Assembly (NCBI RefSeq): GCF_017495225.1
Contig: NZ_JAFEIG010000003.1
Coordinates: forward strand, 55,108-119,107
DNA from: Daejeonella sp.
GTDB taxonomy: Bacteria > Bacteroidota > Bacteroidia > Sphingobacteriales > Sphingobacteriaceae
DNA length: 64,000 nt
Direction: 5' to 3'
Positions 40,088 to 46,290 of this stretch are shown here, piece after piece. The notes under the pieces were generated by a model, which searched no databases, was not told the origin of the DNA, and worked only from the letters and a program-made list of their open reading frames with translations. Position 1 is the first letter of the stretch. The number at the start of each line of letters is the position of its first letter. Position numbers and translations under genes: made by a program.

Positions 40088-41278
40088 ATGGTAAAAGCAA
40101 TAAACTTAAAACCCTTTAAAGATTTCCTTAGATCCGAACAAATTGGCGGAGTCATTCTCATTTTTTGTGTCATAATTTCGCTAATTATTGCGAATTCTAA
40201 TTTAGGAGAAGCATTTGAGAATTTTTTAAGTACCCAAATTGGATACAGTAACCCAAGTATTCAATTAGAATATTCTATTTCTCTCTGGATAAATGATGGC
40301 TTGATGGCTATTTTCTTCCTCTTAGTGGGATTGGAAATTAAGAGAGAAATTATTGAGGGCGAATTATCAAGCCCTAAAAAGGCAGCCATGCCCATTTTTG
40401 CTGCAATTGGAGGAATGCTTTTTCCTGCCGGTATTTATGCATTATTCAACTCAGGATCCCCTACTGTACATGGATGGGGAATTCCAATGGCGACAGATAT
40501 TGCTTTTGCTTTGGGAGTAATTTCACTCTTAGGAAAACGAGTTCCTTCATCCCTAAAGATATTCCTTGCTGCCTTAGCTATAGCAGATGATCTTGGTGCT
40601 ATACTCGTAATTGCAATTTTTTACACCAATGAATTACATTGGATGCAACTAGGATATTCTGCGGGGATTCTAGCACTTTTAATCGCAATGAATTGGTTCG
40701 GTGTAAAAAGGTTATTCTTTTACATTATTCCTGGTGTATTTTTATGGTATTTTGTTCATCATTCAGGCATTCATGCCACTATTGCAGGGGTGTTATTAGC
40801 ATTAACAATACCTACAAATCCAGAAAAAGACGAATCACCATTAGAGAAATTAGAGCATATCATCATTTGGCCTGTTAACTTCTTAATTATGCCGATTTTT
40901 GCTTTAGCTAATACCAATATCGAATTTGAAAGCAAAATGATCGACGGATTGGGTAGTCCCCTAGGTTTAGGGATAATCTTTGGATTAGCCTTAGGGAAAC
41001 CTATTGGAGTAACTTTGTTCTCTTGGTTATCTGTTAAGTTAGGTTTCTCAAAATTACCCAATAGGGCCAATTGGAAACACATTTTTGGCTTGGGATTACT
41101 TGCAGGAATTGGATTTACCATGTCTATCTTCATCGCACTTTTATCATTCAGCAATCCTGAATATAAGGTTGAAGCGAAATTTGCGATACTCGTTGCATCA
41201 ATACTCTCAGGACTAGCAGGTTACCTTTTCTTAAACGCCTTAAATAATAAAGAGAAAAAAAAGATAGAAGAAGCCTAA
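40088..41278 (+). CDS. nhaA: Na+/H+ antiporter NhaA
   Basis: NhaA exchanges two protons for one sodium ion across the inner membrane. The protein (about 396 aa from the ATG at 40088) has the membrane architecture and signatures of the family: GLEIKREIIEGELSSPKKA, the interrupted-helix text MATDIAFALGVISLLG and the ion-binding Asp pair in LAIADDLGAILVIA. The track starts at a TTG three codons earlier. Its stop codon overlaps the trpA stop codon on the other strand, so no terminator separates the convergent genes. Confidence 0.95.
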   Translation: MVKAINLKPFKDFLRSEQIGGVILIFCVIISLIIANSNLGEAFENFLSTQIGYSNPSIQLEYSISLWINDGLMAIFFLLVGLEIKREIIEGELSSPKKAAMPIFAAIGGMLFPAGIYALFNSGSPTVHGWGIPMATDIAFALGVISLLGKRVPSSLKIFLAALAIADDLGAILVIAIFYTNELHWMQLGYSAGILALLIAMNWFGVKRLFFYIIPGVFLWYFVHHSGIHATIAGVLLALTIPTNPEKDESPLEKLEHIIIWPVNFLIMPIFALANTNIEFESKMIDGLGSPLGLGIIFGLALGKPIGVTLFSWLSVKLGFSKLPNRANWKHIFGLGLLAGIGFTMSIFIALLSFSNPEYKVEAKFAILVASILSGLAGYLFLNALNNKEKKKIEEA

Positions 41279-42045
41279 GAACGAATAGATTTGATAAATT
41301 CTGGAATTCTTTCCAAAGCATTGTCGGAATCTAAAAACTTAACAAAGGCACTACCAACAATTGCTCCTCGAGTATACTCGGCAGCTTTATTGAAGCTCTT
41401 TTGATCTGAAATACCAAAACCAATCATGGTAGGATTTTTCAAATTCATGGCCTTAATTCTTGCGAAATAAGCATCAGCCTCATTAGAAACAGTTAAATTT
41501 TTTCCAGTTGTTGAAGATGAGGAAAGTAAATAAATGAAAGCATTGCTAAGCTCATCAATTTTACGGATACGCTCTTCTGAAGTTTGAGGCGTAACCAAGA
41601 AAATATTACTGATATTATTATTCAAAAAATCATCCTTATAAAATTCTTCATACTCAACCATTGGAAGATCTGGAACAATAACTCCATCCACTCCTACTGC
41701 GGCACAAGATTCACAAAAATCCTTAACTCCATACTGTAAAACTGGATTTACATATCCCATCAATAATACTGGTATGGAAACACGCTCACGAAGCTCTTTT
41801 AACTGCTCAAACAAAAATTTAAGATTCATCCCGTTTTGAAGTGCTATTAAAGAACTATTTTGTATTACGGGACCATCTGCCAAGGGGTCGGAATATGGAA
41901 AGCCAATTTCTATAAAATCGGCACCCGCCTTCTGTACAGCCTCGGCAATATCTAAAGTACTTGATAAATTGGGATATCCTGCAGTAAAATATATGGATAA
42001 AAGAGATTCTTTTTTATTTTGAAACAATTGATTCAGTCTATTCAT
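41275..42045 (-). CDS. trpA: tryptophan synthase alpha chain
   Basis: TrpA cleaves indole-3-glycerol phosphate and channels indole to TrpB. The 256-aa TIM barrel has the catalytic Glu in FIEIGFPYSDPLADGP, the second acid in GVDGVIVPDLP, and the phosphate-site loop near GFGISDQKSF. It is the last gene of trpDFBA, 41 nt after trpB. The operon is controlled by the attenuator at 45.03-45.2 kb. Its stop overlaps the nhaA stop on the opposite strand. Confidence 0.97.
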   Translation of the reverse strand: MNRLNQLFQNKKESLLSIYFTAGYPNLSSTLDIAEAVQKAGADFIEIGFPYSDPLADGPVIQNSSLIALQNGMNLKFLFEQLKELRERVSIPVLLMGYVNPVLQYGVKDFCESCAAVGVDGVIVPDLPMVEYEEFYKDDFLNNNISNIFLVTPQTSEERIRKIDELSNAFIYLLSSSSTTGKNLTVSNEADAYFARIKAMNLKNPTMIGFGISDQKSFNKAAEYTRGAIVGSAFVKFLDSDNALERIPEFIKSIRS

Positions 42046-42086: not shown

Positions 42087-43295
<1,209 letters not shown>

Positions 43296-43326: not shown

Positions 43327-43971
43327 TTATTTTCTAATTATATCAAATGCAGATTGAAGACTATCGATATCTTTCAAACCAGGTTCTATTTCAAATTTAC
43401 TATTCAAATCAACACCCAATAACTGTTTATGATTTAAATTAAAAACTTCTTGGATGTTTTCGGGACTTATTCCGCCACTCAAGAAAAAAGGTTTATCCAA
43501 TTTACATTCGCTCAAAACACGCCAATCAAAACTGATTCCTGAACCTCCATGTTCTACTGTTTTAGTATCGAATAAGAAAGAATCTACGTTGTTTTGGAAA
43601 GAATTAAGTGTTTCAAAATCAAAACTTGAACTTATTCCAAATGCCTTCCAAATCTCTATTTCAATGAAAGGCGAGGTTCTAGTCAATTCTCTTTTTAATT
43701 CTCTGCAATATTCTACAGATTCAGATCCATGAAGTTGAATGGCACTTAAATTAAATTTTTGTACTATTTCAAGTACATTTTCTAAACTTTCATCAACAAA
43801 TACGCCAGTCAGTTTGATTGATTTGGGCAATACGCCTAAAACCGATTTATCCAAATCACCTACAAAACGTTTTGAAAGTGGATAAAAAATCAAGCCTAAA
43901 TAATCCGGTTTTAATTCCGCTAAAGCGAAAATATTTTCCGGATTTCGCATGCCACAAACCTTTATTCTCAT
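43327..43971 (-). CDS. trpF: phosphoribosylanthranilate isomerase
   Basis: TrpF isomerises N-(5-phosphoribosyl)anthranilate. The 214-aa TIM barrel has the catalytic Cys in IKVCGMRNPENI, the general acid Asp with phosphate site in GGSGISFDW, and FLSGGISPENI. The start codon overlaps the trpD stop (ATGA type), so translation is coupled. trpC, normally found between trpD and trpF in related Bacteroidota and needed for the next step, is missing here. Confidence 0.96.
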   Translation of the reverse strand: MRIKVCGMRNPENIFALAELKPDYLGLIFYPLSKRFVGDLDKSVLGVLPKSIKLTGVFVDESLENVLEIVQKFNLSAIQLHGSESVEYCRELKRELTRTSPFIEIEIWKAFGISSSFDFETLNSFQNNVDSFLFDTKTVEHGGSGISFDWRVLSECKLDKPFFLSGGISPENIQEVFNLNHKQLLGVDLNSKFEIEPGLKDIDSLQSAFDIIRK

Positions 43972-44954
43972 GATAACATTTTCTTAAAACTTAGGAGTGC
44001 TTTTTTACTAAGCAATGCCTCTTCTGCTTCATAAAAACAATCTGCAAAAGATAGGTCAGGCTTTATCGTTCTAATAGCTACCGCTGCATTTGAAACAACC
44101 ACATTATTTTGTTCAGAACTGCCATTCCCCTCCAATACTGATTTGAAAATATCTGCAGACTCTTTAACAGTGCTACCCCCTTCAATGGATTTAGGATCAA
44201 TTTTTTCGAAACCCAATTGATCAATTGAATAAATATGCTCGCCTGAGGTAGAAAAAGTCTTAAAATCACAGGTTAAAGAAATCTCATCATAACCTTCTAA
44301 AGCATGTAAAATGGTGTATTTTGTATCTGCCTTTTGATAAAGATAAGCATACAAACGTGCCAATTCAAGACTAAAAACCCCAACCATTTGATATTTCGGA
44401 CGCGCAGGATTTACCAAGGGCCCTAACATATTAAAAAAAGTTTTAACACCTAATTCCCTTCTTATTGGAGCAACAGTTTTCATAGCGGGATGAAATAATG
44501 GAGCATGAAGAAAACAAATCCCAGCCTCATCTAAAGTTTTCTTCAAATGATCTGTCTCATTTGAAAAAGAATAGCCTAGATATTCCATTACATTGGATGA
44601 ACCGCATCCAGAAGAAACACCATAATTACCGTGCTTTGAAACCTTATAACCAGCACCTGCGACCACAAAAGAGGCCAAAGTGGAGATATTAAAAGTATCC
44701 TTACCATCACCGCCGGTACCACATAAGTCGATTAAGTCATAGGCTTTTAAATCCGGCTTCAAACAAATATCAAGCATCCCATCTCTAAATCCTTCAAGTT
44801 CATCAACGGTAATACTTCGCATACAAAATGCAGCCATAAATGCAGCCATTTGGGAAGAATTGTACTTTCCTTGGGTGATATTTGTCAAAATCTCTTTCGA
44901 TTCATCCTTAGTAAAGGTTTTATGCTCAAATAAGTGATTTAAGATTTTTTTCAT
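43968..44954 (-). CDS. trpD: anthranilate phosphoribosyltransferase
   Basis: TrpD joins anthranilate and PRPP. The 328-aa protein has the PRPP motif LCGTGGDGKDTFNIST, the VSKHGNYGVSSGCGSSNVME loop and TFFNMLGPLVNPA. It is the first structural gene of the operon, about 80 nt downstream of the attenuator. trpE and trpG, which make its substrate, are not upstream. The anthranilate synthase must therefore be encoded elsewhere in the genome. Confidence 0.97.
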   Translation of the reverse strand: MKKILNHLFEHKTFTKDESKEILTNITQGKYNSSQMAAFMAAFCMRSITVDELEGFRDGMLDICLKPDLKAYDLIDLCGTGGDGKDTFNISTLASFVVAGAGYKVSKHGNYGVSSGCGSSNVMEYLGYSFSNETDHLKKTLDEAGICFLHAPLFHPAMKTVAPIRRELGVKTFFNMLGPLVNPARPKYQMVGVFSLELARLYAYLYQKADTKYTILHALEGYDEISLTCDFKTFSTSGEHIYSIDQLGFEKIDPKSIEGGSTVKESADIFKSVLEGNGSSEQNNVVVSNAAVAIRTIKPDLSFADCFYEAEEALLSKKALLSFKKMLS

Positions 44955-45033: not shown

Positions 45034-45058
45034 AAGGGCTGCTCTTTGAGCAACCCTT
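45034..45058 (-). terminator. trp attenuator terminator
   Basis: On the minus strand AAGGGTTGCTC and GAGCAGCCCTT form an 11-bp stem (one G-U pair) with an AAA loop, followed by a run of T. It lies between the Trp-rich leader peptide and trpD. The 5' arm (GGTTGCT) can instead pair with GGCAATC at the end of the leader-peptide coding region, an antiterminator. Confidence 0.88.
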
Positions 45059-45091
45059 AGTAAAAATTTCTTTATATAAAAAAATACACAA

Positions 45092-45157
45092 CTAACTGAT
45101 TGCCAAATGTTTAGACATTTGCCACCACCAGATTGTATAAATTTGTTTCGTTTTCAT
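45092..45157 (-). CDS. trpL: trp operon leader peptide
   Basis: This 21-codon ORF is missing from the track. It begins MKTKQIYTIWWWQMSK and ends with TAG at 45092, so three consecutive Trp codons (plus-strand CCACCACCA, 45122-45130) lie at codons 10-12. A hairpin CAAATGT/ACATTTG overlaps and follows these codons, and the last codons provide the antiterminator arm. This is the classical layout of ribosome-mediated attenuation: with scarce Trp-tRNA the ribosome stalls at WWW, the GGCAATC:GGTTGCT pairing forms, and trpDFBA is transcribed. The product has no expected function beyond its translation. Confidence 0.9.
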   Translation of the reverse strand: MKTKQIYTIWWWQMSKHLAIS

Positions 45158-45164
45158 TCTTTAA

Positions 45165-45195
45165 CAAATATGAATAAAATTTTTATAGCTACAAA
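45165..45195 (-). promoter_or_regulatory. promoter of the trp operon (-33 TTTG, -7 CATATTTG)
   Basis: On the minus strand TTTG (45195-45192) and CATATTTG (45172-45165) are separated by 19 nt. The -7 box has one mismatch to TAnnTTTG and ends 7 nt before the leader-peptide ATG, so the leader peptide is likely translated from a very short 5' end. Confidence 0.75.
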
Positions 45196-45246: not shown

Positions 45247-46290
45247 CTATTTAACAGCTTTTCCTCTACTCAAAAACAGCGTAAAAACCACTGAGAGTAA
45301 AAATAACATTCCTACAAACTGGTGTAAAACACCGTAAGACAATGGAATTTCACCTGTTGTATTTAATACAGTAAGTACCCCTAAGAGTATTTGAACAAAC
45401 AATAAAAGTACAGGTACAAAACGAAATTTATGCAATAATGTAGTTTGAGCTAAATCTTTAGATTTCCAAAACCATATTAAAACAGGAATACAAATGATAT
45501 AGGCTAATCCACGATGAATGAATTGCACAGTAATCAAATTATGGGTGATATCGGCCCAAAATCCACCCTCAGTAAGCATCCCGACTGGCCATAGCCTCCC
45601 ATTGATGTCTGGCCAAGTCCTTGCAGCCAATGCAGCATGAAGTCCCGCCATAAATGCCCCATAAATTAGTTGGAAAAACAATATAAGCAATAGCCAAAGA
45701 TTAATTTTCTTTAGGTTGGGCACATACAAAATTTGCTTTTTATCAATACTCAGTTTTAGGGCAAACCAAAATACATAGCACAATAAAATTAATGCCGACA
45801 TGAAATGGACGGCCAAACGAATATGACTTACATATAAATCTTGATCATTTAGTCCGCTTTGCACCATTATCCAACCAATTGCACCTTGTAAGCCTCCCAA
45901 AAGAAACAATACAATCATTGGCACAACCATATTTTTCTGGATTTTATTTGTAATCAAAAAATAAATAAATGGAAAAATAAACACGAGTCCCATGAACCTT
46001 GCCCAATCCCGATGCAGCCATTCCCAAAAGAAAATAAACTTGAAATCTTCTAAGGAAAAGTGACTATTTAAATGCTTAAACTGGGCAATTTCCTTGTACT
46101 TATTGAAGGCCTCCTGCCAAGCTTGTTCATTCATCGGTGGGAAAGCGCCAATAATAGGTTTCCATTCGGTAATAGATAAGCCTGATCCAGTTAAACGGGT
46201 AATTCCACCAATAATAACTTGAATCATTATCATGACCAAACCAATATATAACCAAATAACTACCTGACGATTGTTTTTAGGCGAATCCAT
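45247..46290 (-). CDS. ctaA: heme A synthase (COX15/CtaA family)
   Basis: It oxidises the C8 methyl of heme O to a formyl group, giving heme A for aa3-type oxidases. The 347-aa membrane protein has eight predicted helices in two four-helix halves and the conserved heme ligands in EWLHRDWARF, SHIRLAVHFM, QFIHRGLAYI and LHQFVGMLFL, plus GGITRLTGSGLSI at the N-terminus. Its presence fits the SCO and cytochrome c genes at 37 kb. It stands alone on the minus strand. The 265-nt gap upstream is AT-rich and shows no clear element. Confidence 0.94.
   Translation of the reverse strand: MDSPKNNRQVVIWLYIGLVMIMIQVIIGGITRLTGSGLSITEWKPIIGAFPPMNEQAWQEAFNKYKEIAQFKHLNSHFSLEDFKFIFFWEWLHRDWARFMGLVFIFPFIYFLITNKIQKNMVVPMIVLFLLGGLQGAIGWIMVQSGLNDQDLYVSHIRLAVHFMSALILLCYVFWFALKLSIDKKQILYVPNLKKINLWLLLILFFQLIYGAFMAGLHAALAARTWPDINGRLWPVGMLTEGGFWADITHNLITVQFIHRGLAYIICIPVLIWFWKSKDLAQTTLLHKFRFVPVLLLFVQILLGVLTVLNTTGEIPLSYGVLHQFVGMLFLLSVVFTLFLSRGKAVK

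Follow-up and report, generated by a model that had tools for sequence, protein, structure and literature searches.

The region preceding trpD in the window (the whole stretch of DNA that was analyzed, 64 kb) probably contains a ribosome-mediated Trp leader-peptide transcription attenuator controlling trpDFBA, an assignment to which a probability of about 0.9 is given on the basis of sequence and predicted folding. A conserved Trp-codon ORF ahead of trp genes, an intrinsic terminator and a mutually exclusive antiterminator, the last seen in predicted folds, speak for placing the locus in this class. Classical attenuation of this kind had been proposed by the sequence-only reading, for which lack of conservation in close relatives would have been a refutation. 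That conservation was checked here, the refutation failed, and classical attenuation is the best explanation. The regulated unit is one half of a split pathway, the trpEGC half having a leader of its own.

Organization of the leader region

The elements of the locus are listed below in the direction of transcription. The promoter pair, the 21-codon WWW ORF, the hairpin, the terminator and the GGCAATC:GGTTGCT pairing had been described beforehand and were found to be correct base for base, at the same positions.

45247-46290, minus strand: COX15/CtaA gene upstream of the leader
45195-45192, minus strand: -33 promoter element TTTG, from sequence
45172-45165, minus strand: -7 promoter element CATATTTG, 19 nt from the -33 element and 7 nt from the ATG
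45157-45092, minus strand: leader peptide ORF MKTKQIYTIWWWQMSKHLAIS, 21 aa plus TAG (45094-45092)
45130-45122, minus strand: three Trp control codons, TGGTGGTGG
45121-45115 and 45110-45104, minus strand: arms of the 1:2 hairpin CAAATGT-CTAA-ACATTTG (anti-antiterminator or pause hairpin)
45104-45098, minus strand: antiterminator 5′ strand, core GGCAATC
45095-45091, minus strand: antiterminator 5′ strand, distal UUAGU, overlapping the leader stop codon
45061-45057, minus strand: antiterminator 3′ strand, distal ACUAA
45058-45048 and 45044-45034, minus strand: arms of the intrinsic terminator AAGGGTTGCTC-AAA-GAGCAGCCCTT, -16.8 kcal/mol
45033-45028, minus strand: terminator U-run, from sequence
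43968-44954, minus strand: trpD, first structural gene (PF00591, PF02885)
43327-43971, minus strand: trpF (PF00697)
42087-43295, minus strand: trpB (PF00291)
41275-42045, minus strand: trpA (PF00290)

The 5′ arm of the terminator includes GGTTGCT, the partner of GGCAATC. With regard to this alternative pairing, the core is as originally noted, but a distal helix, UUAGU:ACUAA, had been missed; a small internal loop lies between it and the GGCAAUC:GGUUGCU core. A search of the 64-kb window revealed no further leader-like ORF followed by a terminator.

Predicted folding and proposed switching

The leader folds with an energy of -40.6 kcal/mol (z -4.73), and none of 200 shuffles was as good. It can be observed in the predicted folds that the antiterminator excludes the terminator, with which it has a strand in common, and is itself blocked by the 1:2 hairpin. 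The core helix of the antiterminator comprises by itself only 7 bp, two of them G-U pairs, and in the window leader the bare ungapped GGCAAUC:GGUUGCU is not improbable alone (shuffle p 0.19). A duplex-energy test against dinucleotide shuffles was used in place of the ungapped 7-bp test, giving z -3.3 and p 0.01 for the two-part antiterminator of the window leader, and p 0.06 when the search region was widened. Conservation of the antiterminator in relatives is stronger evidence than this shuffle test. For the window leader, pairing that involves the loop and 3′ arm of the terminator was also tried and was rejected (p 0.93; genus mean z 0.21).

The effect of a translating ribosome was simulated on nascent RNA that still lacked segment 4, with the 3′ edge of the ribosome set 12 nt past the A site. 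Lacking a ribosome, the RNA gave a probability of 0.01 for the antiterminator and 0.97 for the 1:2 hairpin, while a stall on W1, W2 or W3 raised the antiterminator to 0.87. With the ribosome at the stop codon, no strand is left for the antiterminator, which is impossible, and the terminator reached 0.96. In the full-length RNA at equilibrium the terminator was always preferred (0.93-0.96), indicating that the antiterminator must win kinetically. Other attenuators likewise rely on such a kinetic win.

The proposed course of events, from transcription start to Trp response, is as follows. RNA polymerase would initiate 2-3 nt ahead of the leader AUG, and a ribosome would load at or close to the 5′ end of the RNA. 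When charged tRNA-Trp is scarce, the ribosome would stall at the three UGG codons and cover the 5′ arm of the 1:2 hairpin. GGCAAUC...UUAGU would thereby be freed to pair with ACUAA.GGUUGCU, consuming the 5′ arm of the terminator and allowing readthrough into trpDFBA. When Trp is plentiful, the ribosome would arrive at the UAG inside the antiterminator strand and mask that strand, so that the terminator would form and transcription would stop about 80 nt before trpD. If no ribosome were present, the antiterminator would also be blocked, in this case by the 1:2 hairpin. Elsewhere in the genome, trpEGC would be governed by a second leader with the same logic.

Conservation of the leader in related genomes

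Eighty trpD loci were fetched, 74 from Sphingobacteriaceae and 6 from Cyclobacteriaceae, the latter all with the undivided gene order trpEGDCF(B). An ATG-started short ORF with WW, usually NNNWWW or similar, is present ahead of trpD in 73 of the 74 loci from Sphingobacteriaceae, and the order of leader, hairpin, antiterminator and terminator is likewise kept in 73/74, the distance from leader to trpD ranging from about 120 to 500 nt across the family. The sole exception, L077, comes from a MAG labelled Sphingobacteriaceae; its trpDFB genes are not preceded by a Trp leader. Of 89 trpD-type leaders, 87 had an identifiable terminator. Within the genus, 19 genomes had a usable upstream region, and 18 of their leaders contain WW or W.W; the remaining one (L159) reads LCW, with the architecture kept.

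The antiterminator was better than dinucleotide shuffles in 17/18 genus members (p<0.05, mean z -2.72) and in 43/68 leaders from other members of the family. The core pairs form in each of the 18 genus members aligned, A to G and C to U changes having left pairing intact; the G27 partner pair appears as G-C, G-U or A-U. The core is largely invariant in the genus, which limits covariation there. Pairing in the 1:2 hairpin outlasts complete turnover of its sequence, which takes the forms CAAATG/CATTTG, CAAATT/AATTTG, CCAAA/TTTGG, ACGC/GCGT and CACAACG/CGTTGTG. Support for this hairpin is comparative, because single short stems are mostly not significant. A MAFFT alignment placed the sliding hairpin out of register. 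The position of the stop codon differs between genera. The ORF spans segment 2 in this genus, which would leave a terminating ribosome on the antiterminator strand; leaders of Mucilaginibacter and Pedobacter, like that of E. coli, have the stop codon at segment 2 or immediately ahead of it. A genome-wide DNA pattern, TTTG-ATG-TGGTGG, was also tried and returned 176 matches; it was too loose and was dropped.

Promoter position and the 5′ end of the leader mRNA

In Flavobacterium johnsoniae, 4-5 nt separate the -7 element from the transcription start downstream of it (PMC6847099). This spacing, applied to the -7 box of the window, predicts a start at about 45160 and a 5′UTR of about 2-3 nt. The -7 box lies 4-12 nt before the AUG in 17/18 trpD leaders of the genus and in 52/70 other trpD leaders, with 13-19 nt in Sphingobacterium and its allies. 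In trpE leaders the distance is 4-7 nt in 35 of 43, most commonly 6. Among 220 background genes with free upstream regions, a box was found at 4-12 nt in 10 and at 4-7 nt in 4. In 104 of 109 Trp leaders, a TTG lies upstream of the -7 box at a distance of 18-20 nt. Such spacing, 4-12 nt for trpD and 4-7 nt for trpE, implies a 5′UTR of about 0-8 nt, so that the earlier suggestion of almost no 5′UTR holds as far as promoter spacing goes and extends to relatives. Only 3.7% of 5′UTRs in B. thetaiotaomicron are shorter than 10 nt (PMC7366714), and leaderless mRNAs make up 5.5% in F. psychrophilum (PMC9723704). Compared with the background spacing and with these rare short 5′UTRs, the AUG thus lies at an unusual and conserved distance from the promoter. 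From the promoter spacing we infer that the leader is translated leaderless; Shine-Dalgarno sequences are not used in Bacteroidota (PMC6847099).

The -7 box of the window departs from TAHHTTTG in its first base, which is C. Most trpD leaders have CATATTTG at this position, with C for the nearly invariant first T, and the trpE and Flavobacteriaceae leaders mostly have TA. The C-type box may mark a weaker trpD promoter.

Alternative explanations

That attenuation is real while transcription starts further upstream, giving the leader mRNA a normal 5′UTR, is considered unlikely but deserves some weight. The initial C of the -7 box and the scarcity of short or leaderless mRNAs in the phylum (3.7%, PMC7366714; 5.5%, PMC9723704) would fit such a start, whereas the placement of -7-like boxes speaks against it, both for trpD leaders (17/18 and 52/70 at 4-12 nt against 10/220 in the background) and for trpE leaders (35/43 at 4-7 nt against 4/220), as does the TTG found 18-20 nt upstream in 104/109. 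An additional activity in trans, exerted by the leader peptide or by attenuator RNA after its release, as for peTrpL/rnTrpL of Sinorhizobium meliloti, is improbable. The attenuator RNA of S. meliloti starts at the trpL AUG and acts in trans (PMC7298713), and a second trp operon that could be coordinated is present here, but the peptide outside WWW varies freely between genera, which argues against a conserved peptide target.

Two further explanations would dispense with the leader peptide. The terminator might merely end transcription of COX15/CtaA, a gene of the same orientation whose end lies about 90 nt ahead of the leader ORF, the WWW ORF being a coincidence. This is very improbable, given that the order of elements is kept before trpD in 73/74 family loci at varied distances and that almost every relative has a dedicated promoter just upstream of the leader. 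Sensing of Trp or tRNA by RNA only, by a riboswitch or T-box with an incidental ORF, would suit a structured 5′ region with a terminator before an amino-acid operon. It is scarcely credible, since the Trp-related Rfam matches were RF00513 and RF01692 only, with no T-box or Trp aptamer even at E 10, and since the reading frame of the ORF and its UGG codons persist even as the surrounding RNA sequence turns over.

Comparison with known attenuators

Against RF00513 (Trp_leader), the enterobacterial trpL family, the window leader scored 25.4 bits (E 0.0025 in a 221-base search), below the cut-off of 41. The four-segment logic is shared, and Trp codons, 1:2 hairpin and terminator align over the full length. 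Unlike trpL, the window leader has no Shine-Dalgarno leader, a predicted 5′UTR of almost zero length and a stop codon that falls within segment 2, and it is followed by just one half of the pathway, trpDFBA. The resemblance to enterobacterial logic seen in the sequence-only reading was borne out; its remark that such logic is little documented in Bacteroidota needs amendment, because Trp leaders have already been described there, namely RF01692 ‘Bacteroid-trp’, the Bacteroidete tryptophan peptide leader RNA (Weinberg et al. 2010, PMC2864571), and clues to attenuation before amino-acid operons in Flavobacterium psychrophilum (PMC9723704). Within the literature collection searched, no direct study on attenuation in Sphingobacteria or on trp attenuation in Flavobacteria was found.

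RF01692 resembles the window leader in several respects: its members occur in Bacteroidota, with a short NNxWWW leader before trp genes, a -7/-33 promoter just upstream, a hairpin past the Trp codons and a GGCUUG-type terminator. The window leader aligns with it over the full length (1-131) but, at 22.3 bits, remains below the cut-off of 49, and it does not have the loop and 3′-arm pairing of the Flavobacteriaceae members. A gathering search of 20 family loci matched RF01692 in one, the Sphingobacterium trpD leader L071 (51.6 bits, above the cut-off), and because of this single match Rfam is not usable as a census here. Of the RF01692 loci fetched, 29/30 lie directly before trpE and one (L088) before trpB, whereas the window leader stands before trpD, after the operon split. 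The rival pairing also differs. RF01692 leaders, from Flavobacteriaceae and some others, did not engage the 5′ arm of the terminator (mean z -0.80); in 23 of 29 (from L084-L113) significant pairing involved its loop and 3′ arm, mostly as CGUCGUGA:UCACGAC; in Sphingobacteriaceae it is the 5′ arm that is engaged. The conserved CGUCGUGA:UCACGAC pairing falls outside the Rfam description because the RF01692 model ends before the terminator loop.

Leaderless mRNA is commoner in Actinobacteria and alphaproteobacteria. Leaderless leader-peptide attenuators of these groups share with the window leader an ORF placed at the transcript's 5′ end or close to it. Examples are trpL of S. meliloti (PMC7298713), C. 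glutamicum ilvBNC and the mycobacterial poly-Cys leaders (PMC11857589; Canestrari 2020 via PMC13236596). These belong to unrelated phyla, and in Bacteroidota leaderless mRNA is rare.

The split pathway and its second leader

In the same genome, trpE-trpG-trpC lies on another contig (G000:C18) behind its own Trp leader, MKMKQNTASWWRTLNVAQQARIM, at about 226410-226600, with the -7 box TATTTTTG 6 nt before the AUG and the terminator CCCGGCG...CGTCGGG. A WW or W.W leader precedes trpE in 42 of 44 family trpE loci, and significant pairing of the antiterminator to the 5′ arm of the terminator was obtained for 27 of the 40 trpE leaders tested, the pairing being weak in that of the window genome (p 0.10). 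Both the trpD leader and the trpE leader are found family-wide, and Sphingobacteriaceae therefore carry two probable Trp attenuators for one pathway. In Flavobacteriaceae the leader precedes trpE.

Three points look new: the split operon with a trpEGC leader of its own throughout the family, the predicted 5′UTR of about 0-8 nt, and the use of the terminator 5′ arm. They can be joined in one tentative reading, whose chances are put at slightly below even. The ancestral trp operon may have split in Sphingobacteriaceae, each half (trpEGC and trpDFBA) now carrying a leaderless Trp attenuator of its own. The near-zero 5′UTR may have been selected so that the first ribosome binds the AUG as it emerges, in step with RNA polymerase and with no need for Shine-Dalgarno. 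The antiterminator may have been rewired between two designs within the phylum, engaging the terminator 5′ arm in Sphingobacteriaceae and the loop and 3′ arm in Flavobacteriaceae.

In Bacteroidota, where initiation is not Shine-Dalgarno-dependent and leaderless mRNAs are few, how the first ribosome is timed relative to RNA polymerase is a question that a conserved, apparently near-leaderless attenuator makes testable with one reporter. The features described also provide an annotation rule for Sphingobacteriaceae Trp leaders, which Rfam mostly misses. Natural comparisons are offered by the two antiterminator designs, by one versus two attenuators per pathway, and by intact WWW versus decaying Trp runs. 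Decayed runs were observed in the same-genus trpD leaders L146, L154, L157, L158, L159, L161 and L162, which display the forms WCW, WRW, WWC, LCW, YWW and WWR. Loss of one or two Trp codons may mean that control is relaxed, weaker or lost in some species.
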